A stretch of 64,000 nt of DNA from Flavobacterium gelatinilyticum (GTDB lineage Bacteria; Bacteroidota; Bacteroidia; Flavobacteriales; Flavobacteriaceae): assembly GCF_027111295.1 (NCBI RefSeq), contig NZ_CP114287.1, positions 2,666,001 through 2,730,000 of the forward strand, in the 5' to 3' direction. The notes beneath the pieces are model-generated. The model saw only the letters and a list, made by a program, of their open reading frames with translations. It searched no databases and was not told the origin of the DNA. Position numbers and translations under genes: made by a program. This document shows positions 4,714-53,794 of the stretch, one piece after another (the stretch's first letter is position 1; each line of letters opens with the position of its first letter).

Positions 4714-4721
4714 TAATTTTG
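4714..4721 (+). promoter_or_regulatory. Bacteroidota -7 promoter element for the DUF4403 gene
   Basis: TAATTTTG matches TAnnTTTG. Predicted transcript start is near 4725, giving a leader of about 21 nt before the ATG at 4746. This argues against an in-frame TTG at 4719 as the start, because it would lie inside the promoter. Confidence 0.55.
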
Positions 4722-4745
4722 TGTCGTTTTAAAAAATTATTAACT

Positions 4746-6152
4746 ATGAAGTTTTCTTCAACTATTGCTTTATTTGGCCTAATCGCAGTTCTTGCGGGCT
4801 GTTCCTCTACTCAAAAATTAGAAACGCTGAAGCCGGAACCGGATGATGCCAGTCCGTTGGTTTATGACGCGAGCCCATCTTTTATTAACTTACCTATCAC
4901 GGTGAAGCTCAATGACATTCAATCGCAGACGAATGCTCTTTTAAACGGATTAATTTATGAGGACACGAATATTGAAGATGATGATATCGAAATAAAAATC
5001 TGGAAACAGGCTCCTATAAAAATTCAAAATGACCCGGCAAATCCGGATAAAAGAATAAAAACAATACTGCCTTTAAAAGCGAACATAAAATACCGGATTG
5101 GAACTAAAAAACTGGGCGTTGAACTTTATGACACCAGAGAATTTAATCTAAACGGCGTGATTACTTTATCAAGCGAAACCGCACTGTCAAACTGGAAGTT
5201 AAGCACCAAAACCGATTTTAAATCCTTAAACTGGAATGAAAGTCCAACGATGACGGTTTTTGGAAAAAATATGCCGATTACGTATTTGATTAATCCTGCG
5301 ATTTCTATTTTTAAATCGAAACTGGAAAGTACAATTGATGACGCCATCGAAAAATCAATGGATTTTAAACCGAATGTTTTGGCTGCTCTGGAAAAAATCT
5401 GTACGCCGTTTCAAATGAGCGATACCTACGAAAGCTGGCTGCGAATTGTTCCTGTTGAAATTTACTCTACCAATGCCAAGCTGAAAAATGATTCTTTTTT
5501 GATGGAAATGGGAATGAAATGCAACATGGAAACGATTGTTGGCAAAAAACCGGAATCGAAATTCAACGCTAATAAAATTGTTTTAAAACCGGTAACCAAA
5601 ATCCCAAATCAGATTTCTGCCAATATTGCGGCGATTTCAAGTTATGTTGATGCTTCAAAAATAATGACCCAGAATTTTGCCGGTCAGGAATTTGGATCAG
5701 GAAGTAAAAAAGTAACGGTAAAAAACGTTTCGATCTGGCACAGAGACGGCAAAATGGTAATTGCCCTTGATGTTTTGGGATCGATAAACGGAACGTTGTA
5801 TTTAAATGGTTTTCCGCAATACAATCCGCAGACAAAAGAAATTTATTTTGATAAACTGGATTATGTTTTAGATACCAAAAGCAAATTGATGCGAACAGCC
5901 AACTGGTTAGCGCAGGGATATATTTTAAGAAAAATGGAAGAAAACTGCCGTTATTCGATACAGCCAAATTTAGAAGAAGGCAAAAAAAGCATGGCAGCGT
6001 ATCTTAAAAATTATTCGCCAATGCCGGGTGTTTTTGTAAACGGAAAAATGGAAGATATTCAGTTTGATAAAATACAATTGACCAATCAGGCAATTATCGC
6101 TTTTATCAAAATAAACGGAACAGTAAATGTCTCGGTAAACGGATTGAAATAA
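4746..6152 (+). CDS. DUF4403-family lipoprotein
   Basis: 468 aa from ATG at 4746. The N-terminus is a lipoprotein signal with the lipobox LAGC (MKFSSTIALFGLIAVLAGC), so the product is probably anchored in a membrane facing the periplasm. The rest looks like a DUF4403 protein: two related beta-rich halves with alternating short strands and paired statements of basal N/D-G turns, and no catalytic motif. The function of the family is not established; the fold resembles lipid-binding tubular proteins, but that is inference. It is monocistronic, with its own promoter and a shared hairpin terminator at 6188-6217, and is divergent from the exporter operon. Confidence 0.8.
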   Translation: MKFSSTIALFGLIAVLAGCSSTQKLETLKPEPDDASPLVYDASPSFINLPITVKLNDIQSQTNALLNGLIYEDTNIEDDDIEIKIWKQAPIKIQNDPANPDKRIKTILPLKANIKYRIGTKKLGVELYDTREFNLNGVITLSSETALSNWKLSTKTDFKSLNWNESPTMTVFGKNMPITYLINPAISIFKSKLESTIDDAIEKSMDFKPNVLAALEKICTPFQMSDTYESWLRIVPVEIYSTNAKLKNDSFLMEMGMKCNMETIVGKKPESKFNANKIVLKPVTKIPNQISANIAAISSYVDASKIMTQNFAGQEFGSGSKKVTVKNVSIWHRDGKMVIALDVLGSINGTLYLNGFPQYNPQTKEIYFDKLDYVLDTKSKLMRTANWLAQGYILRKMEENCRYSIQPNLEEGKKSMAAYLKNYSPMPGVFVNGKMEDIQFDKIQLTNQAIIAFIKINGTVNVSVNGLK

Positions 6153-6187: not shown

Positions 6188-6217
6188 GAAAAAAGACCAT
6201 CAAATGATGGTCTTTTT
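6188..6217. terminator. Bidirectional intrinsic terminator
   Basis: GACCATC (6195-6201) pairs with GATGGTC (6206-6212), flanked by A-run on the left and T-run on the right. It sits between two convergent genes and can serve the DUF4403 gene on plus and the seven-gene exported operon on minus. Confidence 0.8.
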
Positions 6218-6238: not shown

Positions 6239-6667
6239 TTAGACTTCTTCATTGACAGCAGTAATATCAATATGGGTAATTATCATATCACCATATTCAT
6301 AACTGTCTTTGTGAGTCCAAATTATCTCTTTATTTTTAGGTCTCAACGCCCAATACCAGGGAATATGTTCACTAACCTGCACCAAAAGAGAGATACGTTC
6401 TGTACTATTTCCTTCGTTTTTCTTTTGCTGCTCTATAGTGGTGAACCTAAAACAAAACATAAAACTGTGTTTTTCATTAATAACACTGCCTGTTTTTATT
6501 TCGGGTTTAATTTCCTGAAGTAGATTTTTTAAAGGCCTATTGATAAATAACTGTTCGTTCTCTTTTAGTTTATAAAGATCATTTATGTTTTGTACCATTT
6601 GCTGTGCATAAGTATCACTATGAATTAGAAAACAGAATAGTATTGTAAATTTTAAAATATTTTTCAT
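6239..6667 (-). CDS. Small exported protein, third of three tandem paralogues
   Basis: 142 aa with a signal peptide ending at TYAQQ. I do not recognise the family. It shares with its two upstream neighbours a common plan: QQ(L/M)VQ after the signal, D(V/L)YKL, FIN(R/K/Q)PLK.LL.EIKP.I, RFTT(L/I)..QQ, a W.W..RP....I.WT segment and a final (Y/K)GD motif. It is the most diverged of the three and ends in an acidic tail. It is the last gene of the operon, 58 bp after its neighbour with a strong hairpin in that gap. No catalytic residues are evident; a binding or immunity-like role is conceivable but only inferred. Confidence 0.75.
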   Translation of the reverse strand: MKNILKFTILFCFLIHSDTYAQQMVQNINDLYKLKENEQLFINRPLKNLLQEIKPEIKTGSVINEKHSFMFCFRFTTIEQQKKNEGNSTERISLLVQVSEHIPWYWALRPKNKEIIWTHKDSYEYGDMIITHIDITAVNEEV

Positions 6668-6685
6668 TGATTTGTTTTGATTTTA

Positions 6686-6719
6686 AATCCTGAATTTCAT
6701 CGTAATGAAATTCAGGATT
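6686..6719 (-). repeat. Perfect 15-bp stem hairpin between two paralogous genes
   Basis: 6686-6700 is the exact reverse complement of 6705-6719, with loop CGTA. It lies directly after the stop of the gene ending at 6726 and before the ATG at 6667. The run of T after it on the minus strand is weak (TTTAAAATC), so it may be a leaky terminator or an RNA-stabilising hairpin that lowers expression of the last gene. Confidence 0.7.
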
Positions 6720-6725
6720 CTTGAT

Positions 6726-7136
6726 TTATTTTTTTGTAACAACTTCAATCTTCACAACGGTTAGATTTCCGTACTTTACAGCATCTTCGTTTGTCCAAAT
6801 AATTTCTTTCCCTTTTGGTCGTTCTTCCCAAGTCCAGTTAAACTGTTCTTTAATTGTAACATACAGTGATACCCGATCTTGAGCTGAACCTTGTCTGAAT
6901 CTTTGCTGCTCTAACGTAGTGAATCGAAAATTAAAATAACCAGGATAATCATTAATCCCAATAACGGTTTGGATTTGAGGCTTTATTTCTTTTAATAAAT
7001 CTTTTAAGGGTTTATTGACAAATACTGCTTGATTTTTTTCCAATTTATAAACATCAGCAGTAGTTTGTACTAATTGTTGAGAATACCCTATTTGTACTGC
7101 GAATAGTAATGCATAAATTTTCAAAATGATTTTCAT
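6726..7136 (-). CDS. Small exported protein, second of three tandem paralogues
   Basis: 136 aa with a signal peptide (cleavage near IGYSQQ). It has the same layout as the neighbours at 6239-6667 and 7146-7571: QQLVQTTADVYKL, a NKPLKDLLKEIKP block, the FRFTTLEQQRF segment, SAQDRVSLYV, W.WEERPKGKEIIWT and KYGNLTVVKIEV. No known domain is recognised. It lies 9 bp after the first paralogue. The conserved ERP.G.EI.WT block and the terminal beta-strand-like YGDLTV segment suggest one small beta-rich fold, which is inference. Triplication beside a putative metalloprotease points to a shared ligand or partner. Confidence 0.77.
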   Translation of the reverse strand: MKIILKIYALLFAVQIGYSQQLVQTTADVYKLEKNQAVFVNKPLKDLLKEIKPQIQTVIGINDYPGYFNFRFTTLEQQRFRQGSAQDRVSLYVTIKEQFNWTWEERPKGKEIIWTNEDAVKYGNLTVVKIEVVTKK

Positions 7137-7145
7137 ATCATTCTT

Positions 7146-7571
7146 TTAATCTTTTGGCAATATGACTTCAATGTCGATTACAGTGAGATCGCCATATTTA
7201 TAAGAATCTTGCTGGGTCCAGGCTATTTCGTTTCCAATAGGTCTTTCATTCCAGTTCCATTGAATAAACTGCTTGACATATACTAATAAGGTTACACGAT
7301 CTGTAATTGAGCCTTCTCTTTTTCTTTGTTGAGTTAAAGTTGTCCATCTAAAACCAAAAACAAAACTTAATTCACTATTGAGTGGATTAGCTGTTTTAAT
7401 TTCTGGTTTAATTTCGTTTAATAATTTTTTCAATGGTTGATTGATAAATTGTTCTTTGTTTTCTGCCAATTTGTGAACATCGCTTGTTTTGAGTACTAAT
7501 TGCTGTGAATAACAATTATATTGTAAAAAGTATAAAAACACTAGTGTCAAAAGTTTATATATATTTTTCAT
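7146..7571 (-). CDS. Small exported protein, first of three tandem paralogues
   Basis: 141 aa from ATG at 7571, chosen because it follows the previous stop (7574) by 2 bp; an upstream in-frame ATG at 7583 would overlap that gene. Signal peptide ends near CYSQQ. It shares KTSDVHKLAENKEQFINQ, PLKKLLNEIKPEIKT, FRWTTLTQQRKREGSITD, WNWNERPIGNEIAWT and YKYGDLTVIDIEV with the two genes that follow. Family not recognised. It is tightly coupled to the JAMM-domain gene upstream, so the two are probably made in step. Confidence 0.77.
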   Translation of the reverse strand: MKNIYKLLTLVFLYFLQYNCYSQQLVLKTSDVHKLAENKEQFINQPLKKLLNEIKPEIKTANPLNSELSFVFGFRWTTLTQQRKREGSITDRVTLLVYVKQFIQWNWNERPIGNEIAWTQQDSYKYGDLTVIDIEVILPKD

Positions 7572-7573
7572 TT

Positions 7574-8974
7574 TTAGATACAAGGAATTGGGTTATACAT
7601 TTTAGATCCGTTCGGAAGAGTTGTTTGTTTTGTAAGTAGAGGGTAAAAAAGTCCATCACTTTTCTGTTTAAAAAAAGTAACTCCACCATTATATTTATTT
7701 ACTACGAAAGCCTTTGCTTTTGCTTGTGATTCCATAGTGTATGAATGCATATCATTCCATACACTTAACATTTCACTAATCATAAATCCAGGATACTCTT
7801 TATTATCGTCTGGGCCTCTATTTGCCATATATTTTGCAGAAAACTCCTGTGCAGCTGCTAAATCTGTTATGGCTAATGCATACGTTCCGTCTCCTGTAAT
7901 TGCAAAACAGCTGTCAAAATTACTATTGTTTTTTTTGAGTCGGGCAATTGCATATATGTCTCCACCTGATGGCGGTGTATCATTAGGATGGTTGTGCAGG
8001 ACTGTAAAAGCTCCGGGCCAATTGGTAGTTACATAAACACTTCTGCCACCGTGTACAATAGGAGCTGCAGTTATCTGCGCATTTGTTATTCCTAAAGTAA
8101 TGCTGTGTTCGAAGTTATCAATAGCCGCTTTTTTAATATCGTTTATGGCTTTTTTATAAGTTGGGCTTGCTGCTATAGTTGTCAATTCTTTTGCAACTAC
8201 ACAAGGATCTTTTTTATTTGTTGAAGAGTCAGTTGCTGCAACAGTACTTCCAATAATAACAACATCTTCTTCTTTGTTTATGTGAGTATTAAATTCCACA
8301 ATCCCTAAATCTTTATACAAACTCAAATCTCCTGCAACTTTTTCAAGATTGCCATCTTTACTTTGTTTGGTATCATCGTATTTTGAGGTTTCGGGGTTGT
8401 CAAAGGTAATGCTCGTAATGGCTACGGGACAGGTCGGCAGAAGCTCGACAGTCATTCTGGAATAAATATCTACCCCGTTTGAATCCCTTATAGGTTTATC
8501 AAAAGTAACAGTACCTACCTTTTCCCCATTAATAATGAGATCTACTACTTTTTTCTCGGTACTGGTATTAGGGTCCCTTAACACCTTAACTTCTTGAGTG
8601 TGGGTTTCACCGGGTTTTACTTTTTTGGTTAATTCAACCTTCGATACAGTTTGTTTCTCTTTGTCTGTGCTTGGATCTTGGTTTGCGTTATTGTTTGTCT
8701 GCCCACTGGTAGATCCTCCCGAACCAAAGTCGGAATAATTGTCATCAACACCAATATAATTGGGAGGGTCATGATCCCAGTACAGCGAAGGATAATCCCA
8801 GGAATCATTATCTCCTGCTCCTGCATAAATATCTACATTGTCGAGGTCATTCATTCCGTCCCAGTTAAAACCACCACCGTCATTTTCATTACCTTGTGCC
8901 GTTACTTTACTTCCCAAAAACAGCAACATAAGTAACAGGAAGAAAGTATTTCTTTGTTTAAAAATTTCGCTCAT
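7574..8974 (-). CDS. Exported protein with C-terminal JAMM/RadC-like metalloprotease domain
   Basis: 466 aa. An N-terminal signal peptide ends near KVTAQG, then a D/G/N-rich low-complexity segment (about 30-105). A middle region (about 110-250) looks beta-rich. The C-terminal part carries VLHNHPNDTPPSGGDI (residues 325-340): H327-x-H329-P, S336 and D339 correspond to the HxHP...SxxD zinc motif of JAMM/RadC proteins, one residue shorter in the loop, and E289 in FEHSITLG is a candidate catalytic glutamate. JAMM proteins are Zn-dependent isopeptidases or peptidases; similar domains occur at the C-termini of Bacteroidota secreted polymorphic proteins. No T9SS sorting domain is present. It starts 3 bp after the Sel1 gene. 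Substrate unknown; zinc binding is not proven. Confidence 0.72.
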   Translation of the reverse strand: MSEIFKQRNTFFLLLMLLFLGSKVTAQGNENDGGGFNWDGMNDLDNVDIYAGAGDNDSWDYPSLYWDHDPPNYIGVDDNYSDFGSGGSTSGQTNNNANQDPSTDKEKQTVSKVELTKKVKPGETHTQEVKVLRDPNTSTEKKVVDLIINGEKVGTVTFDKPIRDSNGVDIYSRMTVELLPTCPVAITSITFDNPETSKYDDTKQSKDGNLEKVAGDLSLYKDLGIVEFNTHINKEEDVVIIGSTVAATDSSTNKKDPCVVAKELTTIAASPTYKKAINDIKKAAIDNFEHSITLGITNAQITAAPIVHGGRSVYVTTNWPGAFTVLHNHPNDTPPSGGDIYAIARLKKNNSNFDSCFAITGDGTYALAITDLAAAQEFSAKYMANRGPDDNKEYPGFMISEMLSVWNDMHSYTMESQAKAKAFVVNKYNGGVTFFKQKSDGLFYPLLTKQTTLPNGSKMYNPIPCI

Positions 8975-8977
8975 ATC

Positions 8978-10438
8978 TTATTGTTTTATTATCGTTCTCG
9001 AATGTAATTTGTCGTTTTCGTGTACCTGTACCACATAAAAGCCTTTTGGCAGATTAGCTGTGTCTACAGTAAACGACTGATTTCCTGCTTCCAGACTTGC
9101 AGCAGCTACTTTTTGTGTCTGCCCTGTTGTTACACTTATAAGTTGCAACTGTACTTTTGCCGGCTCTTTTAAATCGAATGCGACATAAAGCTGTTCATTA
9201 AATGGTACAGGGAATACTTTTATAAACTCTGTTTTTTGTGCGGCGAGTGCCAAAAACAAGGCTTCATCCTCTGCAGAAACAGCATCGTTTTTGGGTCTTA
9301 AAACCAGCGTTATTGGTGTTCCGGGTTCACGCCAATAATCAATATAACTATCAACATCTATAAGTAAATAAGGCGTATTATTGTAGATTTTGGAACTTAT
9401 ATTCATTCCTAAAACTTCGTACGTGAGCCGGTCATTTTTAAAGTCATGCGGATATAACTGATCGAGTTTAAATGTAAAGCCGGATACAATAAGAGTGTTG
9501 TTTTTTAGCAGTGCGGTGTTTTCAAAAGTTTTGTTTTCGAAATGTATTCGTGTGCTCAAATCTCCTCGTTTATTTTTACTAAAAACTATTTCTAAAGGCA
9601 GAATACGCAATGGCGTTTTTCCGGACCAGTCGTATTCTATAAAGCGGCCTGTCCATTCTCCTAAAATATTTCCAGCATTCAGTTTTTGATCTTCGGCTTC
9701 ATCTCTTATCAGGCTTTCTCTGCTTTCAGCAATTAATTCAGCCTCAATTTTTTTATCTCCATTGCCTGCTTCGCTAATAGCTTTTTCTGCCAGATTTAAA
9801 ACCTGATCCCGTTTTTCTGTTTTTACGTTCTGCAAAAAAGCTACGCTGTTTGGTGTATTGTTTCCGTATAGATATTCTAAAGCTTTTTCTGTATCCTGTG
9901 GTACACCGTAACCTAAATAATAGCAGACTCCCAGCCAGTGTTTTGCCATGCCGTAATTACTCTTTTTAAACCACTCAACAGCCTTATCATAATCCTGCGT
10001 TACACCAAGACCTTTAAGATACATATACCCGAGACCGTAACTGGCACGATCGTGATTTTTATCAGCTGCTTTTGTATACCATTCTACTGCTTTTTTCATG
10101 TCTATCGTACAGCCTGTCCCCTTACGATAAAAATTGCCTAAATTACTTTGTCCTGCCGGCTCACCGTTTAGTGCCGACTTTTCGACATAATTAAATCCTA
10201 TAGATTCGTTCTTCTCTATTCCAAGACCATAACTATACATAAGTCCTATATAGTTTTGAGCACCGCTGTTCCCTGCTTCTGCACAGGGCAATATATCATG
10301 GAACAAGGTGCTGTAATCTTTGTAAAACTGTTTGCTGTCTAAAAGCTTTTTTACTTGCTGCATACTCTGTTCACAATTAGACTGAGCTCCTGCTCCCAGT
10401 ACTGCGAGCAGGAAAACAAGGGTAAATATCCTCTTCAT
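8978..10438 (-). CDS. Sel1-repeat protein with type A T9SS sorting domain
   Basis: 486 aa. Signal peptide ends near GAGAQS. Residues about 59-192 hold four Sel1-like repeats (for example GLMYSYGLGI, GNFYRKGTGC, GYMYLKGLGV, GVCYYLGYGV), alpha-solenoid units used for protein binding. Residues about 230-400 have no recognised domain. The last 75 residues are a Por_Secre_tail type A sorting domain, with FPVPFNEQLYVAF and the closing GFYVVQV..... and a basic end. That tail predicts T9SS secretion and attachment at the cell surface, consistent with sprA elsewhere in the window. Third gene of the seven-gene operon. Confidence 0.82.
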   Translation of the reverse strand: MKRIFTLVFLLAVLGAGAQSNCEQSMQQVKKLLDSKQFYKDYSTLFHDILPCAEAGNSGAQNYIGLMYSYGLGIEKNESIGFNYVEKSALNGEPAGQSNLGNFYRKGTGCTIDMKKAVEWYTKAADKNHDRASYGLGYMYLKGLGVTQDYDKAVEWFKKSNYGMAKHWLGVCYYLGYGVPQDTEKALEYLYGNNTPNSVAFLQNVKTEKRDQVLNLAEKAISEAGNGDKKIEAELIAESRESLIRDEAEDQKLNAGNILGEWTGRFIEYDWSGKTPLRILPLEIVFSKNKRGDLSTRIHFENKTFENTALLKNNTLIVSGFTFKLDQLYPHDFKNDRLTYEVLGMNISSKIYNNTPYLLIDVDSYIDYWREPGTPITLVLRPKNDAVSAEDEALFLALAAQKTEFIKVFPVPFNEQLYVAFDLKEPAKVQLQLISVTTGQTQKVAAASLEAGNQSFTVDTANLPKGFYVVQVHENDKLHSRTIIKQ

Positions 10439-10465
10439 TATTTCATTTTTTGGTTATTAATTAGT

Positions 10466-11128
10466 TTATTTTTTGTTTTCATTCCACTCAAAACCGTTTG
10501 CATTTTTGCTTGCCGCTTCAGTGGTTTTCAGATTATATTCTGTACTTAGTTTTTTAAACTCTTTTTCGAACCTAAATCGCAAGATTCCTAATTTTGGTTT
10601 TTGAACTGTTTTATCAAAACTGTAGTATGCTGTTGTCAGTAAATGATTTAAGTGGTATTGGTAGAGCAAGGCATATAGTTTTTCTTTCTGACTTTCGGGC
10701 AGACTGCTGTTGTTATTAATAATCGGCTCATATTCTGTTTTTACATTTTGTATGGCTTCATTTTTATAATCGTCTACAGCAAATTCACTGTACTCTTTAT
10801 AGGTCAGCGAACTATTAATTTTTTGGGCATAATAATTTCGGGCATTATTAATCTTAAAATTGTAAAGCGATCCGGGATCCTGAATGCTGTATGGTGCATC
10901 TGCCTGCTTCTTTCTTGTATCTAAATCTTTTAATACTTTGTTTCTCTCTTCTATTATTTTTAATAACTCATTCGTTTTTGCTTCTGTTAAACCGGCTTTC
11001 TCTGCGCTTTTATAAAATCGGTCTTTAGCCCCTGTTTCACTTCCATTATTTAGTTCTTTATTGTTTTGAGACTGTAGATTCAATGCAAAAAGCGAGATCA
11101 TGATGACCGGAAATAGTTGTTTTTTCAT
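10466..11128 (-). CDS. Exported protein of unknown function, mostly helical
   Basis: 220 aa with a signal peptide (MKKQLFPVIMISLFALNLQSQ). The mature part is K/E/N-rich and looks alpha-helical, with a charged stretch TNELLKIIEERNKVLKDLD that may form a coiled coil. No family is recognised and no cysteines or metal-ligand clusters stand out. It lies 34 bp after the transglutaminase-like gene and 27 bp before the Sel1 gene, so it is probably an accessory protein of the same operon. Confidence 0.68.
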   Translation of the reverse strand: MKKQLFPVIMISLFALNLQSQNNKELNNGSETGAKDRFYKSAEKAGLTEAKTNELLKIIEERNKVLKDLDTRKKQADAPYSIQDPGSLYNFKINNARNYYAQKINSSLTYKEYSEFAVDDYKNEAIQNVKTEYEPIINNNSSLPESQKEKLYALLYQYHLNHLLTTAYYSFDKTVQKPKLGILRFRFEKEFKKLSTEYNLKTTEAASKNANGFEWNENKK

Positions 11129-11162
11129 GTTTTTATTTTTTGGATAATTATATTATGAACCG

Positions 11163-12692
11163 CTAATACCATTCGATTTGTCTGGTTTGTGAATTAATTC
11201 TAAATATGCGCTCATAACCATTACTTTTTGAACAAAGAGCCACAAACAGTCCGTTATCAGGAATTCTGGAAAATTTTATATGATCTCTTTCTGCTTTTGA
11301 TTCTTCCAGTTTTTTCCAGCCTTTATCCCACACATAGAGAGTGAACATTTCATTCTCAAATACTTCGAAAGAATTAAAATCGAGTCCCGGTTCTTTTTTA
11401 GTTATGTCTCTGGATATGTTATAAGAAAAAGTTCTGCTGTAATCCGGCTTGAGTATCTGTTGTTTTTTACTGCTGTCCAGAAGTACTGGATAGGGAGCGT
11501 AATTCATTTTTTTTGAAACATTATTGTACAAACTGGGCAGATACACAATGTTGGTTCCTAAATTCTCATACTCCATGTTATTTTCAGACCTCTTTCCCCA
11601 ATCGGTAGTATTCCATTTTCCGAGATTAAAAACATTGATAAAGCCAATAGTTTCTTTGTTTTCCGCGGCAAATGGATACATTATTTTTCCCGTGGGAACA
11701 TACTCTGATGTCACATCTATAAGATTTTTTTCTCTTAAAAATCCAGCAGGTATAAATAAACTGTCTTTTAAAACTGCTAAAGTATTTTGCTGAATAGAAT
11801 AGGTTTTCCTAAAAACTTTGGCCAGCCGTTTTTCGGTGGCATTGTATGCGTATGGGAGTCCTTGCGGATTACCAAAACAGTTTCCGTTAAACGGAATGTG
11901 TTTACCGTTTTCATCAATAATTGTATCCCAAAAATGTCTTTTTGAAGATGCTCCATAAAACGGCGTAAAGTCAAAAGTCACAGCCAGTCCAATTGATCTG
12001 CATGCCAGTAAAGTTAAATTTGCCAGGTCGCTGCAATCTCCTTCCCTTCTAAAAAGTAATTGTTGCGGGCTTAGGTAAGGAATGGGATCCGGACGACTCC
12101 CTAAAAAACGGAAATTTTTTAATTCTAAAATGGTCTTTGTCGCTGCATCAACCGGTTCGTTCTTATTGGCCGTAAACACTGCCTGAGATACTAATTGCAC
12201 GTATTCATCACGCCAGTCTTCAAGAGGTTCAGTTAAACTTCTGTAAGGAAGTATATATTCGCAAAATGTTTTAAAATCATACGAACTTGACCACGTATTA
12301 CTTTTCCAAGCCTTAAAAGCCAGATCAATATTTTTAATTAATAATTCCGGAGTTACAACATCCAGATCTTTTACATCATATAGTTTTGGAGTTAGCTTAA
12401 TGCTGTCCTGCAATTTTAAAAAAGCATTTATCGCTTCTTCAGGATTTGGGTAATCCAATTCGTTAAAATAAATCTTGTTATTGTCCCTGTCTATCCAGTT
12501 ATAATTTCTGCCATAATGAATATCCATATTAGAAATTAGAAATTTCGCGGCTTCTTTTTTTTCGGTGTCAAATTGATAATGCTTGTACACAACCCTCTCT
12601 AAACGCTCCTTTGACAAATTTGAATGCGAAATCGATTGCGAAAAAACAGCAGAAAAAGACAAGCAAATAGAAAAAACAAAGTACTTAATCAT
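11163..12692 (-). CDS. Exported transglutaminase-like protein
   Basis: 509 aa with a signal peptide ending near AVFSQS. The core at about 205-270 has the transglutaminase-like signature: REGDCSDLANLTLLACRSIG with C220, then RHFWDTIID with H253 and D260, fitting a Cys-His-Asp triad. The preceding FCEYILPYRSLTEPLEDWR block is typical of Bacteroidota members that carry helical N-terminal and beta-rich C-terminal extensions. Such proteins act as cysteine peptidases or transfer acyl groups; the activity here is unknown. It is the first gene of the operon; a near-consensus promoter box (TAAGATTG, minus strand, 12714-12721) is 22 bp upstream. Confidence 0.83.
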   Translation of the reverse strand: MIKYFVFSICLSFSAVFSQSISHSNLSKERLERVVYKHYQFDTEKKEAAKFLISNMDIHYGRNYNWIDRDNNKIYFNELDYPNPEEAINAFLKLQDSIKLTPKLYDVKDLDVVTPELLIKNIDLAFKAWKSNTWSSSYDFKTFCEYILPYRSLTEPLEDWRDEYVQLVSQAVFTANKNEPVDAATKTILELKNFRFLGSRPDPIPYLSPQQLLFRREGDCSDLANLTLLACRSIGLAVTFDFTPFYGASSKRHFWDTIIDENGKHIPFNGNCFGNPQGLPYAYNATEKRLAKVFRKTYSIQQNTLAVLKDSLFIPAGFLREKNLIDVTSEYVPTGKIMYPFAAENKETIGFINVFNLGKWNTTDWGKRSENNMEYENLGTNIVYLPSLYNNVSKKMNYAPYPVLLDSSKKQQILKPDYSRTFSYNISRDITKKEPGLDFNSFEVFENEMFTLYVWDKGWKKLEESKAERDHIKFSRIPDNGLFVALCSKSNGYERIFRINSQTRQIEWY

Positions 12693-12797: not shown

Positions 12798-14540
12798 ATG
12801 AAAATTCACAGAATCATCATTTTTTTAACATTTACATTGGCATTTTTATTTGCTAAATGCGAATGCACTTCACTTCCCTTTTTAAATCAAAAATATATTT
12901 ATTGGTTAATTGCTGTTATTGGAGGTACTGTACTGTTTCTTTATAAAGAATCAAACACTAAGTTATCTTTAAACATTTTTGATATTCTTATGCTGATTCT
13001 GACTTGCATAACATTTTGGAATCTGATTTTTCTATCAAAAGCTGCAGTTTTCAATTTAAAACTATGGTACTTCTTTGGTTATCTGCTTGTTTATGTAATC
13101 TTAAGAAGAAGTTTAAACACAGATGAAATAATTCGAAAAAGCCAAAGTTTTCTGCATCATTTTATAGCCGTCACAGCAATTGTAAATGGCAGTATTGCTG
13201 TTTTGCAGGAAAATCATCTGCTCTTATCTAAAAATGAACATTTTCTAAGTACCGCGCTTTTTTATTCACCTAATCAGCTGGGGCTTTTTATGGCACTTGG
13301 ATGCTTAAGTTCAATAGAGCTAATTAAAAAGTACAAAGGCTATATTAAAACCCTATGTATTCTTTGTTTTCTGATTTCTCTCTATGGTTTATATTTATCA
13401 AAATGCAGGGGAGCTTGTTTAGGTTTAGGGGCTGCATTATTTTATGATTTTTACAAATCCAAAAATAGTGTTCGCTTTATTAGATGGAAAATTATGGTTC
13501 CTCTTTTATTGTTTTTATGTGGATTCTTTTTTCTATTTTTCAATACAGCTGCCCTAAAATCAGAATCAACTTCAGGGAGAGTTTTTATTACAGAGAGAGT
13601 TTTAGAAGAAGTTAAAGATAAATTACTAACCGGACATGGTTTTGATTCATTTGCCCTGAAGTACAATACAGCAAAGGCACAATATTTTGAAAGCGAAAGA
13701 TCGTGGCAGGAGATAAAGAATGCCAGCTATATCTACAATGCTAATAATGATTTTCTAGAATTGACTTTTGAATTTGGATTAATTTGGATCTTCGTTTTTA
13801 CTTTAATTATTTTCATGTTGTTTTATTTTTCAATTCAAACCTCAGAAATAAAGTCATGCACTACTATGCTTCTTTGTCTCATTATTTTTGCTTTTACAAA
13901 TAGTGTTTTGTCTGTACCGCTATTTATTGTTTTAGGCTGCTGTTTCTCTGTAATAATCATCAATACAATCAAGAACAAACCTATCTATATATTTAATAAT
14001 TACAAGTTTACACAAATTCTAAACATAACTTTTGCGATTTCTTTTTTTGCGGTACTGCTTTTTAGGATAAATGCAGAATATAAATTATTGAAACTGTATG
14101 AGCAAAAAGTGTCTTTTACCAGTTTTAAAACAATTGAAAACTATATTTCAAAAATAGATGCAAATGGAGAGCAGTTTTTTATGGCTGGAGTAATTCTATT
14201 AAAAAACAAACATACTAAGGAAGGAACTTTCTATTTAGAAAAAGGGTTTGAATGTTCAGGCAAGCCAAGTTTAGGCAAAATTCTGGCCGGCATTTACGAA
14301 AAACAAAATCAATTTTCGAACGCTGAAAAAATATACATCTATAATATAAATGCAGAACCTTTTAGATTTGAGCCCCGCGTCGATCTATTTCAATTATATG
14401 TCAGAACAAATCAAAAAAAGAAAGCAATAGAAACCGCTAAAAAAATAATTGATCTTCCCATTAAGATTCCGTCTGACAAAATTGGCACATTTAAAAAAGA
14501 GGCGAGATCCTACATTACTAAACAACAAAAGGCAGAATAA
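12798..14540 (+). CDS. O-antigen ligase/polymerase-like membrane protein with TPR-like tail
   Basis: 580 aa, inner-membrane. About ten or more hydrophobic helices cover residues 1-430, and the C-terminal 140 residues are soluble and TPR-like (KNKHTKEGTFYLEKGFE, LAGIYEKQNQFSNAEKIY, LYVRTNQKKKAIETAKKI). The periplasmic loop LTGHGFDSFALKYNTAKAQY followed by NNDFLELTFEFGLIWIF matches the Wzy_C pattern of O-antigen ligases and polymerases, which join lipid-linked glycans. Alternatives are a glycan polymerase or the ligase used in protein O-glycosylation. It lies alone on the plus strand with no other glycan genes nearby. Its last 20 bp form half of a palindrome shared with the convergent gene. Confidence 0.75.
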   Translation: MKIHRIIIFLTFTLAFLFAKCECTSLPFLNQKYIYWLIAVIGGTVLFLYKESNTKLSLNIFDILMLILTCITFWNLIFLSKAAVFNLKLWYFFGYLLVYVILRRSLNTDEIIRKSQSFLHHFIAVTAIVNGSIAVLQENHLLLSKNEHFLSTALFYSPNQLGLFMALGCLSSIELIKKYKGYIKTLCILCFLISLYGLYLSKCRGACLGLGAALFYDFYKSKNSVRFIRWKIMVPLLLFLCGFFFLFFNTAALKSESTSGRVFITERVLEEVKDKLLTGHGFDSFALKYNTAKAQYFESERSWQEIKNASYIYNANNDFLELTFEFGLIWIFVFTLIIFMLFYFSIQTSEIKSCTTMLLCLIIFAFTNSVLSVPLFIVLGCCFSVIIINTIKNKPIYIFNNYKFTQILNITFAISFFAVLLFRINAEYKLLKLYEQKVSFTSFKTIENYISKIDANGEQFFMAGVILLKNKHTKEGTFYLEKGFECSGKPSLGKILAGIYEKQNQFSNAEKIYIYNINAEPFRFEPRVDLFQLYVRTNQKKKAIETAKKIIDLPIKIPSDKIGTFKKEARSYITKQQKAE

Positions 14541-23633: not shown

Positions 23634-26600
23634 TTAATTTCCGAAATTATAACGAAGTGTGAATCCCGATCTAATGTTTGTTAAAGGATATGAAGTCGAA
23701 ATAACTGCCTTTGAAAACGAATGATCGTAATAGAATATCGCTGTCAGGTTTTTACTGAATGAATAATCTGCCGTTAATTTTACTGACCAGATATTCTGCC
23801 CCGCCGCCAGCTGATTATTATCGTAATCTAAATAACGCACCAGGGTTTCATTGTTTCTTAAAGAAAAATCTGCCTTGATATTGATATCACTTTTAATAAT
23901 TCCAGTTGGATTATCTGCTAATCTGGAAGAGAAAATAACATCTTTAAAACGATAACCAAGACCAATTATATATTCCATTCCCTTTACTTCTGTCAATAAA
24001 TTGTTGTCAAAACTCATTGATAAGGCTCTGTCTTTTTTGATTTCAGAAAGAACACGAAGTGAACTTTTCAACTCAAAATCCATTCTGATCAGCGGACTGA
24101 ACTGCTCAACCAGATTGACATTAGACATGATGATTTTGTTATAGAAATTCGTATTCACATCCTGTACCTGCGGCGAATCATTGTAATCAAAATTAGATCT
24201 GAACTGGTTAACCGTGTACGAAGCTCTGTAATTGTGCTGTAATGAAAAACGCTTAAATTTATCTTTAAAGTATTTATAGCGCATTAATCCGTTGTACTTA
24301 ATACTCCAGTTTGGTATTGGGAAATTTCTAAAAATACTTGTTGACGAACTTGAAGCATCAGCTCCTGTATACGCAGCTAAAAATGCAGGCAGTAAAACAG
24401 CCTGATTACTTTTGGTATACCCAATAGGATATCCCTGATTTGCCACATATATTGCATAATTAGGATCTGATGGTGCCGGAATCTTATTGTTATCATCACC
24501 ATATCTTGGAATTGCCGCTTCGCTTCCGTAACGGCTTAACGCCAAACGATTGGCTATTACCAGACGGTTACTTCTAAAATCATCAAATGCCGATGACTGG
24601 AATTCATCACTCGTTGAAAATGCCGTTTTAATCAGTACGGTTGAAATCGAGAACATTCCGTATGTATATGGCGACAATGGCATATATTCATTTTGTTCAT
24701 TTACACTATACTGCTCTGATGTATTTTCTGAGTACGAACGGTCCATAGTCAAATCAACTTTTAAATCCGGAAACAAATCGATATTAGCCGTTACTTTTAA
24801 AAGTTTGTTGGTAACCTGTGTAAAGTTCTGGTTGAAATCCTGATAGGTAGTTAACCAGCCGTTTTTTGCCGCTTCGTAACGAATATCATCCTGGCTTCCA
24901 AAAACGAAACCTAAACTAGGTTTGGTTGTACCAAAGAAACCCACACTTGGTATATATCCCGGTAATACTGTCCCGCTGTTTTTAGTATAGTTAATCTGAA
25001 TGTTTTTAACACTTGTTAAAACACCTATCAAACCATCATAAAACGGACTGCTCGCAGCGACTGGTTTTGCTGTGTTTACAATTTTTTCTCCCGGTTTTGG
25101 TGCCGCAACAGGCTGTTTTGCCTTTGGTGTTTTTGCCCCCGGAGTCAAACCTAAATATTTATACAGCGTATTCATATTTAATGTTGTCGTAAGCGTATTT
25201 GAATTTGAGTTCTGAATTGTATTTCCTAAATTAAATATGTTACCAGTGTCATCCACATATTCCGAAAACGCTGTTGATGAACGCTGCCACATATAATCTG
25301 CTGTATAGGAATAACTTGCTTTTACAAAACCGAAAACCGGAATTTTATTAATTGGAATATCATAATTCAATACCAATTGCTGCGCATGCTGGTTAGGTGT
25401 TCCTATATCAAAATAATCGTCCCAGATATTAAAATCTTCTTTTGGCACATTATCATCGTTCATGAAATTACGCACAATATTATTTGATGTTGCAGAATAA
25501 TTCAGTTTTAATGATTTGGTTAAGTTGAAACCAAAACCATACTGGTAATTAAAGGCAAAATTTCGTCTGTAAAGCGGATCAATCTCTATTCCTTCTACCT
25601 GAACATCGCGGTACATTTGACGATTACTCTGCCTTAAGATATTACTGTTGAAAGAAATATTCGTAGGGAGATAATTAAAATTAAAATCACTTAATATCTT
25701 CCAGTACTCACTTTTCTTCATGAACTTATTGTTCTTTAAAGGCGTAATTTCTTTTGGCTGAAAAGTATAGGCATAATTTACAGCTGTATTAGTCTGTTCG
25801 TCTTTATAATCTTCTACCTCATAATCGTGTCTGTCAACCTGATTGTAAGATTGTGAGAAAGTAAAGTTCTCTACATCATAAACGTGTGGTTTTTGTTCCT
25901 GGGCACGGTCTTTTCTAACGCCGATAAAGTTAATGCTTCTTCGTTTTGTATAATCGACCGCACGGGTTCTGATGTTATCTCTTTCAGCTTTATCTGTTGT
26001 TACCTCCAACAGCTGTTTTAATTTAATATCCTGATTAAAAGGATCGTATTCAGGCGTAATTACTTCTTCGCCTATTGCATAGTTAAACGGCAGGTTAATA
26101 CCCCATTTTGGAGGCAGTAATTTTCCTAAATTCAAATTGGTTACAATATTGTATTGCTGCACATCTTCACGGTCACGCTCATTAGCACCTTGTTCTAAAG
26201 ATCCAAAACCTATTGTGCTTTTTCTTCCTGTTGCAGAAAGCGTTGCAAAATCGGCCATATTGGTATCCACATTTAAGATCGCCGCCATACCGCCTTTATT
26301 TTCCAAATCGGCTAAACGAAGTTCGTTAAACCAAAATTCCCCTTTAAGAACTTTATGATCTGAGCGGTTTTTTACCCCCACCATTAAGTTTCGAACAAGA
26401 CCAAAATTTGGATTTCCTTTAATACCTAAAATTAATCTGTCACTGTTATCTCCGCCTTCTACCTCGGGGTCATTATCCGGATAATAAATACCATTTTCAT
26501 CTCTCTTGGTACTATTAATATCGATTTTCATTCCAAGAATTTTCATTCTGGTCAAGAGCTCCAATGCCAAATCTATGCTGTTTGAATCCATCCAGACCTG

Positions 26601-29600
26601 ATCTGCAGCTACCTGAGCAGAACCAACAGGTCTGGTGACATTTAACGGTACCTCAACCTGATAGAAGTTTTGTGTAAAGTCATTACCAAAACGAATAAAA
26701 CCAATCATTTCTCCATCTTCTAACGGCACTTCTCCTGTTAGTGATTCAGCGTGCAAAAACATTTTCAGTTTTTTGTACTGACGCATATCCACGCTTACGT
26801 TTTTGAAAACTGCTCTTGCATCCTGATATTCTAAGCCGGTACCGTCAACACGAAGTGATAATGCCTGTTCATTTTGGTTAATAATTGTATTGTTATTGTA
26901 TAACTGCTCTCTTTGCACACCAGGAGGCATTACGTAATTTACCGGTTCTTTCGTTCCGTTTTCCTGAACGTTCACCGCTGCTACTTCAAATTCAACTGAA
27001 GAGTTTGGATTCGCCGGATGATTAATATCAAGAGTTCCTGTATATTTTCTCCACTCTCCTCGTACTAAATCTAAAGCACCAAAACGAAGTGTCATTTGAT
27101 CGTTGAATCCGGTCATGAACATACGCATGAATCGGATAGATCTGAAATCTGTAATATTACCAATTGTATTTTGTGGCTGCGAAACCGGAACTTTAAACTG
27201 AATCCATCTTGCAGGTGTTGTCGCCCCGTTTGGAAGTTCGGCATTTGGAACATCTCTTACATCGGTAACATACTTGTCTCCTACTTCCATTCCCGGTTTA
27301 ATATCAATACTATACTCATAATATGCATTGATCGTACTCATGGTATTATCACGGTTAATATCCTCAACATCCGGAAGTGTGGTCGATCCACGGTTAGGAT
27401 CATTGATACTTACTGCCGAGTTTCCTTCGGTACCGTTGTAGTTTTTGTAACGTTCTAAAACGCCTCCGTCTGTATTAAGGTAATACAAATAATCATCAGC
27501 AGCAGGATCCGCTTCGCCTGCATAATTGGTATAAATTGCACCTTCCTGCGGACTTGACAAACCATCTAAACCAACGTCCTGATTTTTTCTATTATCAGCA
27601 TTGTTATCAAACGCATAAATCAAAGACTGCGATGCCGGAACATCTCCCCAAAGCGGTCTTGGATTAACCAATACCTGATCAGGTCCTAGTCCGTTTTCAT
27701 ATTGTTTTCTTCCGTCTTTTAAGATATCTTCTGATATTTCCCCTAAATTGAAATATATTTTTCCAATATTACCATTTGATGCCTGTGAATTTCCTACATA
27801 GGGGTCAAGTACCCAAAACTGAATGTACTCAACATTTCCCTGTTCGAAGTTTGTTGAATTCAAGGCACGCATTATACCTCCAAAATTAGTTGAAGGGTCA
27901 GTTACTCCAAAATCAGGATTGTTGTTATAAGGTCCTCTTTCAGAAGGATAATACGTTAAATCGAGTGTATTGATCACCTGTATCTGTCCTTGTGCAATAT
28001 CAGTATTTGGATATAATTCTTTACTGTAAATCCTTCTGGTAGTATTTAATGATAAGTCATCGTTTGAAATACCTGATGGTTTTGAAGAATAGAAAACCGG
28101 ATCAATGGTATACCATGATAATTTTGCTCTTTTATAACCATATCTTAAATCCTCATAATGTGCATTAAAGGTAACATCTCCCGCAGAGTTTATAAATGGT
28201 GTAGAAGACAAACTCCATGAATAAGCAGAACGCATATCTATGGTTGACTGCGACCCCTCGAAATCATCTACATATATAGTAGCTTCTCCTTGAAAATCAC
28301 TTGCTTTTGGCGCATCTGGTCTTAAAAAGGCAACTTCACCTCGAATCGATAAATTCGAAGGAACATCTGTATCGATATTTGGAAGTTTATTGGCTAATCT
28401 TGTCAGGAAAGGAACTTCTGTTGAATAGTTTCCGTTGAATCCAAAAATAGTATTGTTTACTGATTCCTGTCCGTAACTTGATTTTTGTGTAAACGGTCTT
28501 TCTGTCATTTTTAAGAAAGTTCCGCCAACAACAAATTTATCCGAGATTTTGTGTTCAACATTGAATCCCATAAATCTTCGGGTCTGCTGTCCAAAGATCG
28601 AATTGTTTTCTAATGAAACCTCAATTGGTGTATTTGAAGCCTGCAATGAAGGATCCAGAATCTGAACTCTTCCCAGCTGGTAATCGACACTATAATCGAT
28701 ACCTTCTACCAAAACCCTTCCGGCAGCGGTTACAACTACTGATCCCTGAGGAACGTTAAACGCTCCAATTGGAATACCGTTACTTCCTGAAGATTTGTAT
28801 TTTCCTCGTAATAAGAATTTATTTTTATCACTGTCCTGCAAAGCCGCAGCCTGTGTATTGCGATACATATTTCTAAATACATACTTCTTCTGGTTATCGT
28901 TATATGTACTTGGATCGTCGTAAGATCTTGAACCATTTGTTTCTAATAATTTGTTGAAAAGAAGTTCTCCAAAAGGCTCTTTGGTTGTAAAGATAATACG
29001 TCCGTTCTGAACATCAACTGTTACTCCCGGAACATAATCGAAGAAACCATCTCCTCCGGCCTGCGGATCATTATTGTAATTGAGTCGATCCAGATTGAAT
29101 ACGTTTAATAAAGCGGTATTCTTTACATTTAAATTCGGATCATCATGCTCTGGAAAAGGTTGAGATTCAGATACCGGTGTAATATAATTTATTGGCGAAG
29201 GATCTGTATAAAGGATATTTAACCTGAAATCGTCCTGCTTAAGCTGATAAGCCTGCGGAATTTGATAGACGTTTTTCATCATCAGGTTCCAAACCGGATT
29301 TTGAACATTTGTCAAATTACTTTTCAGCATTTTTAAAATCAAACTTTGTGTAATAACGGCCTGATTTCCGTTACTGTTTCCTGTTACTACAGTTGCATCA
29401 ACACCATCACTACCAAACTCCCCAACCTGATACACTTTTCCTCCAACGGTATACTCAAAGGCAACGGCAAGAATTTCATCATTTGCTAAACGCTGCTGCA
29501 AAGAAATATATCCTAATTGTGCATTATAAGTAAATTCGTTTGTGGTTAATTTTCGTGCATTTTCTAAAATCGAGTAATCGGTTGCTTCACTTACATTCGC

Positions 29601-30842
29601 TTCCGTGAATCCGGATTTTGCTGTTACAACTTCTCTAATTTCCGGTTTTAAGAACGAATTTCCCTTACCAATTGTAGCTGGATCGTATTTATTGTTGTTA
29701 TTGTTTGTTGGCGAGTCAGGCGCACTATTAAAGAATCCTGTTGTTGACGAAATCACTACTACCTGATTATCCGGAATTCCGGTAATTTGAGATTCTCCTA
29801 AATCCTGAAGTGCAATAATGTTTCTTAAGTTATTGTTGTTTACGGCAACCCTGTTTTGTTTGTTGGTTACCCAGACCTCTATCCTTGTAATTTGAACACG
29901 GCTGTCGATAAAAGGATATTTCTTTAATGATTCGTCGTATCTGTTTCTAAAGTACTGCGAAAGGAAAAAGTGTCGGTCGCTGTCGTAATCCAAAGCAAAC
30001 AAATCAAAATTCTGAACCGTTCCTCCATTTTCGGCCACTACACTTTTGGTCTGTGATTTTTGTTCTGAGAAAACTCCTGTAACGGTTGTTTTACCAAATT
30101 GCAGCTGTGCTTTTACCCCAAATAAACTCTGAGCACCACGAATTAAGGTGCTGTTAAGCGGCATACTTACGTTACCGACCTCAACTTTCTGAATAATATC
30201 ATCTTCTGAAGGGGTATACGCCAGTTTAAATAAATTTTGGAAAGCAAATGTTGACTGGGTATCGTAGTTTGCGTTTACCTCTAAACGGGTTCCGATTTTT
30301 CCCATCAAACTCATACTGATACGCTGATCAAAGTCGAAAGTAAGGCTTGACCTGTTTCGGGGTGAAAATGCCGGATTGTCCTGTTTGGTATAACGAAGCC
30401 CCAAATCCATTTCGACAGATCCGGTAGGTTTTACATCAATGGTATTACTCCCGAAAATGCTTTCGAAAAGACTTGAATTGATGTAATATCTTGGCAGTAA
30501 ATCTTTTTTGGCTGCTTCGCTGTTGTTTTTCTTACCATCAATGGCATCCATTTTTTTTCTGAAATAATCTCTTCTGGCTTCTTTTAAAACCAAATCTTCA
30601 TATTCTCTTCGGGTAAGAACAAGCGGATAGTCTATTGAAAAACCATCAACAGAACTTGTGTAGATATATCGATCTGTAACGGGATCGTATTTATAACCCG
30701 AAAGTATGCTTGGGGGATTCTCCAGCTCCATTTTCCCAACAGAAAACTGAGTCTTGGTTGTATCTTGAACTGCCGGATTTACCTGTGACCGTATAACATT
30801 ACCACATAATAAAACCAGTAAAAAAATACAAATTTTACGCAT
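23634..30842 (-). CDS. sprA: Type IX secretion outer-membrane translocon SprA/Sov
   Basis: 2402 aa, the length of F. johnsoniae SprA as I recall it. A signal peptide (MRKICIFLLVLLCGNVIRSQ) is followed by the SprA N-terminal regions and a very large beta-barrel; the protein ends TLRYNFGN, an aromatic-containing barrel C-terminus. SprA is the giant 36-strand channel through which folded T9SS cargo crosses the outer membrane, and it is also needed for gliding. Cargo candidates in this window are the giant adhesin (37901-53755) and the Sel1-repeat protein (8978-10438). It lies 24 bp after ruvA and probably shares the promoter at 31468-31475. Confidence 0.97.
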   Translation of the reverse strand: MRKICIFLLVLLCGNVIRSQVNPAVQDTTKTQFSVGKMELENPPSILSGYKYDPVTDRYIYTSSVDGFSIDYPLVLTRREYEDLVLKEARRDYFRKKMDAIDGKKNNSEAAKKDLLPRYYINSSLFESIFGSNTIDVKPTGSVEMDLGLRYTKQDNPAFSPRNRSSLTFDFDQRISMSLMGKIGTRLEVNANYDTQSTFAFQNLFKLAYTPSEDDIIQKVEVGNVSMPLNSTLIRGAQSLFGVKAQLQFGKTTVTGVFSEQKSQTKSVVAENGGTVQNFDLFALDYDSDRHFFLSQYFRNRYDESLKKYPFIDSRVQITRIEVWVTNKQNRVAVNNNNLRNIIALQDLGESQITGIPDNQVVVISSTTGFFNSAPDSPTNNNNNKYDPATIGKGNSFLKPEIREVVTAKSGFTEANVSEATDYSILENARKLTTNEFTYNAQLGYISLQQRLANDEILAVAFEYTVGGKVYQVGEFGSDGVDATVVTGNSNGNQAVITQSLILKMLKSNLTNVQNPVWNLMMKNVYQIPQAYQLKQDDFRLNILYTDPSPINYITPVSESQPFPEHDDPNLNVKNTALLNVFNLDRLNYNNDPQAGGDGFFDYVPGVTVDVQNGRIIFTTKEPFGELLFNKLLETNGSRSYDDPSTYNDNQKKYVFRNMYRNTQAAALQDSDKNKFLLRGKYKSSGSNGIPIGAFNVPQGSVVVTAAGRVLVEGIDYSVDYQLGRVQILDPSLQASNTPIEVSLENNSIFGQQTRRFMGFNVEHKISDKFVVGGTFLKMTERPFTQKSSYGQESVNNTIFGFNGNYSTEVPFLTRLANKLPNIDTDVPSNLSIRGEVAFLRPDAPKASDFQGEATIYVDDFEGSQSTIDMRSAYSWSLSSTPFINSAGDVTFNAHYEDLRYGYKRAKLSWYTIDPVFYSSKPSGISNDDLSLNTTRRIYSKELYPNTDIAQGQIQVINTLDLTYYPSERGPYNNNPDFGVTDPSTNFGGIMRALNSTNFEQGNVEYIQFWVLDPYVGNSQASNGNIGKIYFNLGEISEDILKDGRKQYENGLGPDQVLVNPRPLWGDVPASQSLIYAFDNNADNRKNQDVGLDGLSSPQEGAIYTNYAGEADPAADDYLYYLNTDGGVLERYKNYNGTEGNSAVSINDPNRGSTTLPDVEDINRDNTMSTINAYYEYSIDIKPGMEVGDKYVTDVRDVPNAELPNGATTPARWIQFKVPVSQPQNTIGNITDFRSIRFMRMFMTGFNDQMTLRFGALDLVRGEWRKYTGTLDINHPANPNSSVEFEVAAVNVQENGTKEPVNYVMPPGVQREQLYNNNTIINQNEQALSLRVDGTGLEYQDARAVFKNVSVDMRQYKKLKMFLHAESLTGEVPLEDGEMIGFIRFGNDFTQNFYQVEVPLNVTRPVGSAQVAADQVWMDSNSIDLALELLTRMKILGMKIDINSTKRDENGIYYPDNDPEVEGGDNSDRLILGIKGNPNFGLVRNLMVGVKNRSDHKVLKGEFWFNELRLADLENKGGMAAILNVDTNMADFATLSATGRKSTIGFGSLEQGANERDREDVQQYNIVTNLNLGKLLPPKWGINLPFNYAIGEEVITPEYDPFNQDIKLKQLLEVTTDKAERDNIRTRAVDYTKRRSINFIGVRKDRAQEQKPHVYDVENFTFSQSYNQVDRHDYEVEDYKDEQTNTAVNYAYTFQPKEITPLKNNKFMKKSEYWKILSDFNFNYLPTNISFNSNILRQSNRQMYRDVQVEGIEIDPLYRRNFAFNYQYGFGFNLTKSLKLNYSATSNNIVRNFMNDDNVPKEDFNIWDDYFDIGTPNQHAQQLVLNYDIPINKIPVFGFVKASYSYTADYMWQRSSTAFSEYVDDTGNIFNLGNTIQNSNSNTLTTTLNMNTLYKYLGLTPGAKTPKAKQPVAAPKPGEKIVNTAKPVAASSPFYDGLIGVLTSVKNIQINYTKNSGTVLPGYIPSVGFFGTTKPSLGFVFGSQDDIRYEAAKNGWLTTYQDFNQNFTQVTNKLLKVTANIDLFPDLKVDLTMDRSYSENTSEQYSVNEQNEYMPLSPYTYGMFSISTVLIKTAFSTSDEFQSSAFDDFRSNRLVIANRLALSRYGSEAAIPRYGDDNNKIPAPSDPNYAIYVANQGYPIGYTKSNQAVLLPAFLAAYTGADASSSSTSIFRNFPIPNWSIKYNGLMRYKYFKDKFKRFSLQHNYRASYTVNQFRSNFDYNDSPQVQDVNTNFYNKIIMSNVNLVEQFSPLIRMDFELKSSLRVLSEIKKDRALSMSFDNNLLTEVKGMEYIIGLGYRFKDVIFSSRLADNPTGIIKSDINIKADFSLRNNETLVRYLDYDNNQLAAGQNIWSVKLTADYSFSKNLTAIFYYDHSFSKAVISTSYPLTNIRSGFTLRYNFGN

Positions 30843-53755: not shown

Positions 53756-53794
53756 AGACACACTCGGTATTAATGTGAGTAAAATAAATGATGG

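Follow-up and report, generated by a model that had tools for sequence, protein, structure and literature searches.

Polymorphic toxin systems, as set out in the relevant sections of Zhang et al. (2012; PMC3482391), combine exchangeable toxin domains with linked immunity genes, poly-immunity arrays, and displaced cassettes, and the Tox-MPTase2/3 and Tox-JAB toxin families are named there. Here, we analyzed a window of 64,000 nucleotides from Flavobacterium gelatinilyticum (positions 2,666,001 to 2,730,000 of contig NZ_CP114287.1), which contains a seven-gene operon and, divergent from it, a gene for a Wzy_C membrane protein (WZY). The first three genes encode a transglutaminase-like protein (TG), a probably helical protein (HEL), and a protein with Sel1 repeats (SEL); gene 4 encodes a predicted JAMM metalloprotease, and genes 5 to 7 encode three small proteins. 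This locus very probably represents a loaded copy of a polymorphic toxin system of the Bacteroidota, in which a conserved cassette is followed by an exchangeable effector slot and then by cognate immunity genes. As a kind, such systems are known. The cassette itself is apparently undescribed, and no description of a Wzy_C-TG-HEL-SEL set was found in the open-licence literature.

In contrast to the systems in those sections of Zhang et al. (2012), gene 4 has no recognized RHS or other trafficking element listed there, and its short slot protein lies beside a separate cassette. TANFOR toxins, in the parts of PMC7073777 that describe them, likewise belong to Bacteroidetes and have a Sec signal and a variable C-terminal toxin; neighbors with a tail for the type IX secretion system (T9SS) are enriched, and T9SS export is merely proposed. 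However, TANFOR proteins are described as large and as carrying an N-terminal TANFOR domain, and the neighbor domains enriched there (SprB, Fn3, and PKD) differ from those of the present cassette. Gene 4 had no match in Pfam or NCBIfam, two libraries whose content of TANFOR models was unchecked. JAB/JAMM toxin domains also occur in the Tox-JAB-1/Imm65 and Tox-JAB-2/DUF4329 pairs, Imm65 having a signal peptide and a lipobox according to the section of PMC3482391 concerned. Neither the window toxin nor genes 5 to 7 matched these pairs in Pfam at E values up to 1; relatives in loci L129 and L189 touch DUF4329 below its cut-off. Toxins of contact-dependent growth inhibition have orphan toxin-immunity modules, displaced and with homology arms to the active gene. 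In the present case, by contrast, the homology arm lies in the 3' region of the neighboring T9SS-tailed SEL, partly running into the effector.

A conserved cassette of TG, HEL, SEL, and WZY

A preliminary description, made from the sequence of the operon, had named a transglutaminase-like protein, Sel1 repeats, and a T9SS tail, all of which are borne out by Pfam or NCBIfam matches above cut-off (Table 1). Its catalytic triad for TG, C220/H253/D260, held in part: C220 and H253 are invariant in an alignment of 20 homologues (20/20), whereas D260, as read from the alignment, is D in 14/20. TG retains C220 and H253 and may either cut or join. The middle domain of SEL is marked by the motif WTGxxIEYDWSG, and a signal-like N-terminus together with a type A C-terminal domain above cut-off characterizes SEL as a predicted T9SS substrate.

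We used searches with TG or gene 4 to collect 43 distinct full-length SEL loci. TG and WZY matches lie within 9 kb of SEL in 43/43, and a match to one of two HEL profiles (HEL1 or HEL2) is present in 42/43. WZY is split into two half-length frames in L167, and in a second Flavobacterium clade it is co-directional and just upstream of TG. On these comparisons, the Wzy_C gene, which lies outside the coordinates of the preliminary description and was left out of it, is the fourth conserved member beside TG, HEL, and SEL, and genes 1 to 3 with the divergent Wzy_C gene form a cassette conserved across several Bacteroidota lineages.

Linkage was tested independently from the SEL side by searching residues 230-486 in 398 genomes of the same genus. 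Matches occurred in 69/398 genomes, mostly to the T9SS tail alone; 19 of the 21 that reach the middle domain have a TG match no more than 10 kb away, in support of the exported, operonic gene set described earlier as one that is kept together. The two without TG are short fragments, one at a contig start in genome G407 and the other a 239-aa frame on another contig in G359. Seen from TG, SEL is nearby in 19/21 matches above 200 bits and in 0/13 matches of 60-150 bits; both exceptions in the former group are in G359, one of them a TG at a contig end beside a truncated SEL (L098).

TG matches are present in 28/398 genomes of the genus (close and distant relatives pooled), and the SEL middle domain in 4/395 phylum genomes, or 2/170 genera. 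Neighborhoods were read for 20 of the TG places in the genus and for the best 80 of 364 TG relatives in named genomes. WZY, TG, HEL, and SEL occur together, in varying gene order, in Flavobacterium, Wenyingzhuangia, Algibacter, Flavivirga, Lutibacter, Cellulophaga, and Flavicella, and also in Aquimarina, Flammeovirga, Pedobacter, Mucilaginibacter, Pinibacter, Dysgonomonas, and a Bacteroidales metagenome-assembled genome (MAG). The genera that carry the cassette cover several classes of Bacteroidota. Within this best 80 of 364, many of the weaker TG relatives (e.g., in Zixibacteria, Calditrichia, and Bacteroidales MAGs) lack it. A wider family of exported TG proteins (~520 aa; L135-L187), from Zixibacteria, Calditrichia, Bacteroidales, and other MAGs, is mostly without WZY or SEL neighbors.

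Exchange of effectors in the slot behind SEL

SEL is followed by a gene on the same strand in 41/43 loci; in L127 and L139, which are outside the 41, the sequence stretch ends directly after SEL. The gap is at most 10 bp in 33 and at most 24 bp in 39 loci, and ranges from -83 to 51 bp, the value of -83 (L188) being probably a start-codon artefact. By a simple score, the N-terminus is hydrophobic in all 41 slot proteins. Of these, 22 are assigned by Pfam at E 0.01, 14 above the gathering cut-off: Tox-MPTase2 (7), C39 (4), DUF4329 (JAB; 2), Lipase_3 (2), and, once each, Muramidase (E 8.1e-53), Col-Pyo_DNase (7.5e-40), GH108 (8.4e-24), M23 (5.4e-16), NlpC/P60, Tle1-like, and Tox-MPTase3. The tally also has chance-like matches to Trypan_PARP (3) and RCR (1). 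NCBIfam likewise returned an antibacterial DNase, a holin-associated muramidase, and peptidoglycan endopeptidases, plus some chance-like matches. Five further slots, those of the window, L043, L044, L114, and L105, hold JAMM domains by homology or motif, and no recognized toxin domain was found in 14/41 slot proteins. A T9SS C-terminal domain was found neither on gene 4 (Pfam, NCBIfam) nor in the tally of the 41 slot proteins.

The exchange is visible among close relatives. Within the clade of the window (6 loci), identity is 64-75% for TG, 60-67% for SEL, and 55-68% for HEL. For the effector C-terminal half it is 17-23% in the four loci that carry another toxin, against 45% and 56% in the two that share the toxin. 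A quick TG tree requires at least 13 changes of toxin type over 25 labelled tips, a count made with 7 states, for which the theoretical least is 6, and without a shuffle control. The N-terminal half of gene 4 recurs on Tox-MPTase2 proteins (P0018, P0019) and its JAMM half on other N-termini, so that a common N-terminal part is joined to differing C-terminal toxin domains, as in polymorphic toxins. The gene 4 position is, on this evidence, a variable slot: about ten enzyme types, JAMM among them, were found there, while TG, HEL, SEL, and Wzy_C are retained.

In the second Flavobacterium clade (L100, L102, L103, L105, L106, L143, L148, L190), the effectors have near-alike signal-like starts and a divergent remainder. 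These starts may perhaps be part of a recombination arm.

The JAMM effector and its putative immunity family

Gene 4 is composed of a signal-like N-terminus, a disordered region to residue ~106, a beta domain (~120-243), and the JAMM domain (257-465). Residues E289, H327, H329, S336, D339, C258, and C465 are nearly invariant in a 43-row alignment. The H327/H329/D339 motif proposed earlier is therefore real and conserved, and the alignment and the structure model together place the E, HxH, S, and D zinc motif of JAMM/MPN+ proteins within an MPN fold. The best fold matches of the model are peptidases, and the JAMM domain is AMSH-like; the model thus predicts a JAMM metalloprotease as the C-terminal domain.

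We found 22 distinct genes for the JAMM half over the loci read, four of which also match in the N-terminal half (window, L043, L044, L114). Sixteen are in 15 stretches of 5-19 kb (L048-L062) in which no TG was found, and the remaining two, L142 and L189, are in cassettes of Pedobacter and Mucilaginibacter. In L048-L062, the same JAMM domain and the family of genes 5 to 7 occur with other, partly lipoprotein-like N-termini and without a nearby TG match. These loci perhaps deliver one and the same toxin-immunity pair by a second route.

Genes 5 to 7 are paralogues, as had been described, with 45-52% identity, and their family has 172 database matches at E 0.001. Among 100 relatives, it is found in 7 genomes (G000, G004, G015, G042, G045, G047, G052); the same seven are in the match list of gene 4, which contains no other genome numbered up to G060. 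A family member lies directly 3' of the JAMM gene in 20/22 cases, in arrays of 1-8 copies. For the other two, L142 and L189, the next genes match the family profile weakly (E 0.02 and 0.051), a level that unrelated genes reach too. In L105, where the JAMM slot was recognized by motif only, the next gene is a family member (E 2.6e-6). The small proteins track JAMM and not TG or SEL: 15 loci without a TG match have the family next to a JAMM domain, and slots with other toxins have other gene families in the next position. They had been proposed as binding, inhibitor, or immunity partners, and of these roles immunity is the one supported here. An immunity gene directly downstream of the toxin (20/22, with two weak cases) is a mark of polymorphic toxin systems, and genes 5 to 7 are probably exported immunity proteins against the gene 4 toxin.

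The gene after the slot is signal peptide- or transmembrane-like (SP/TM-like) in 37/41 loci by the simple score (36/41 in an earlier setting). The four others are those of L106, L122, L128 (PoNi, 1.8e-23), and L131 (DNase slot). SP/TM-like next genes accompany 24/24 envelope-type slots versus 0/2 DNase slots (Fisher p ~0.003, hand-computed), a contrast that rests on two DNase cases and a grouping made post hoc. With this reservation, it places the JAMM target outside the cytoplasm.

Repeats and displaced cassettes behind the slot

The SEL 3' region is repeated downstream of the slot in 5/41 loci. The repeats partly continue into the 5' end of the effector, and in three of the five loci they run into displaced effector copies. 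L142 has three such repeats with 80-92% identity, and L100 has one with 88.6% identity over 1488 columns. The repeat of L123 is 81% identical over 172 columns, the share of SEL being the last 22 bases only, and L116 and L121 have short SEL 3' pieces of 58 and 63 columns. Repeats in L102 and L143 comprise effector parts only. Orphan immunity genes for other toxins were found in L046, L043, L114, and L103: four JAMM-immunity genes stand behind the Tox-MPTase2 toxin of L046, the L047 immunity recurs in the JAMM loci L043 (83% identity) and L114 (74%), and a PoNi gene lies behind the Tox-MPTase2 locus L103. Orphan immunity genes or displaced toxin cassettes are a further mark of polymorphic toxin systems.

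Organization of the window

The operon is as described previously: all seven minus-strand open reading frames (ORFs) are present, with intergenic gaps of 34, 27, 3, 2, 9, and 58 bp, and a terminator follows. The terminator was not listed by a generic scan and was recognized on reading and folding the sequence. All seven products were also said to be exported, and each has a hydrophobic, signal-peptide-like N-terminal segment, judged by eye from the sequence without a predictor. Genes 2, 4, 5, 6, and 7 had no match above cut-off in Pfam or NCBIfam.

Table 1. Features of the locus and of the surrounding window (positions refer to the window).
Feature	Position	Strand	Basis or remark
Gene 1, TG: exported transglutaminase-like (papain-fold) protein	11163-12692	(-)	Transglut_core PF01841, E 3.1e-7 (Pfam, above cut-off)
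Gene 2, HEL: exported, without known family, probably helical	10466-11128	(-)	nothing above cut-off
Gene 3, SEL: Sel1 repeats, middle domain, T9SS type A tail	8978-10438	(-)	Sel1 PF08238, E 8.8e-33; T9SS tail PF18962, 1.1e-7, and TIGR04183, 2.9e-7 (all above cut-off)
Gene 4: effector in variable slot, predicted C-terminal JAMM domain	7574-8974	(-)	motif alignment, structure model
Gene 5: first of three paralogues, probably exported immunity proteins	7146-7571	(-)	ATG start; listed TTG start reaches 7583
Gene 6: second of three paralogues, probably exported immunity proteins	6726-7136	(-)	family comparison
Gene 7: third of three paralogues, probably exported immunity proteins	6239-6667	(-)	family comparison
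WZY: Wzy_C (O-antigen ligase / PglL-like) membrane protein, divergent from operon	12798-14540	(+)	PF04932, E 1.8e-13
Intrinsic terminator 3' of gene 7	~6189-6217	(-)	hairpin and T run in folded sequence
Palindrome, stem of 15-16 pairs, in gene 6/gene 7 gap	6686-6719	no strand	sequence scan and folding
SprA, T9SS outer-membrane translocon, outside cassette	23634-30842	(-)	TIGR04189, 2792.7 bits vs cut-off 200

The palindrome between the immunity genes may serve partial termination or regulation. SprA lies in the same window, about 11 kb from the operon (TIGR04189 match at G000:C1:2689640-2696731), and the genome accordingly has the secretion route required by the SEL tail. A DUF4403 protein (4719-6152 (+), E 2.3e-132) faces the end of the operon; a similar gene and an ABC-type gene flank L043, and the position seems common to the window and the L043 genome. 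The window also contains a 5286-aa ORF with a GTG start (37901-53761 (-)).

Discussion

The gene set, the domain swapping, the enzyme repertoire of the toxins, the toxin-linked immunity families, the displaced cassettes, and the JAMM motif and fold were all established by comparison of predicted proteins and genes, and the assignment of toxin and immunity identities is well supported on the same footing. The slot of the window would then hold a JAMM-fold zinc metalloprotease exported by Sec, with genes 5 to 7 as three variants of its exported inhibitor. Toxin and immunity proteins would reach the periplasm by Sec, as their signal-like N-termini suggest, and SEL would exit via the T9SS, consistent with its tail and with SprA in the genome. 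SEL may carry or display the toxin, which is without a T9SS tail of its own, and TG and the Wzy_C protein might, speculatively, process, glycosylate, or couple the toxin or its carrier. In a rival cell, the JAMM domain would cut a peptide or isopeptide bond of the envelope, as the exported immunity proteins and the AMSH-like fold and motif suggest. The least certain part concerns TG, HEL, and WZY, which might act in processing, as a chaperone, or in conjugation. We tentatively propose, as a reading that falls somewhat short of being probable, that the cassette is dedicated to toxin delivery and rides on the T9SS: SEL would be an exported carrier that binds, or is coupled to, toxins of many enzyme classes which are themselves exported by Sec and lack a tail; TG and Wzy_C would make the coupling by protein or glycan conjugation; HEL would be a chaperone; and the 3' region of SEL would be the recombination anchor for reloading of the slot.

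Alternatively, TG, HEL, SEL, and Wzy_C could form a surface-glycoprotein or cell-wall module with a function of its own, toxin-immunity cassettes merely settling at a recombinogenic 3' end of SEL. The SEL 3'-region repeats agree with this, Wzy_C and transglutaminase folds fit envelope polymer chemistry, and the wider TG family mostly has neither SEL nor WZY beside it. However, every SEL gene with downstream sequence (41/41) precedes a same-strand gene with a hydrophobic N-terminus, an argument tempered by the 14 slot proteins in which no toxin domain was recognized, and we consider such a module rather unlikely. The preliminary description had seen the point of the system in a pairing of TG with JAMM, which would jointly cut or join cross-links in the envelope with the small proteins as binding partners. 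The export of all products, folds suited to peptide or isopeptide bonds, and the conservation of the operon speak for this reading. Yet JAMM, one of about ten enzyme types in the slot, is exchanged for unrelated enzymes while TG stays, and it occurs with the small protein but without TG in 15 loci; of all the alternatives, this pairing now deserves the least credence.

Two further alternatives concern the target of the polymorphic toxin system favored here. A nuclease role was suggested for toxin JAB domains in section 26 of Zhang et al. (2012; PMC3482391), and the toxin JAMM could accordingly act as a nuclease in the target cytoplasm. Against this, the immunity family has signal-like N-termini like the next genes of envelope-type slots, whereas the next genes of the two DNase slots have none; the near-invariant C258 and C465 suit an extracytoplasmic domain; and the best folds are peptidases. 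The HNHP sequence, which resembles RadC, is a point in favor of the nuclease. On balance, we regard it as improbable. The effectors could also be directed at eukaryotic grazers or hosts and not at bacteria, since lipases and metallopeptidases could act on eukaryotes and anti-eukaryotic domains are predicted among TANFOR toxins in section 6 of PMC7073777. The linked immunity arrays and the muramidase, GH108, M23, and NlpC/P60 slots make this very improbable.

The analysis predicts functions for HEL and for the JAMM branch with its immunity proteins, all of which were without a family match. The use of the T9SS in killing between bacteria was left open in section 9 of the TANFOR paper (PMC7073777). 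By putting a T9SS-tailed member directly before diverse toxins, the cassette makes this question testable by single gene deletions. If the proposal of a T9SS-riding cassette is true, it would mean a distinct mode of delivery for polymorphic toxins.

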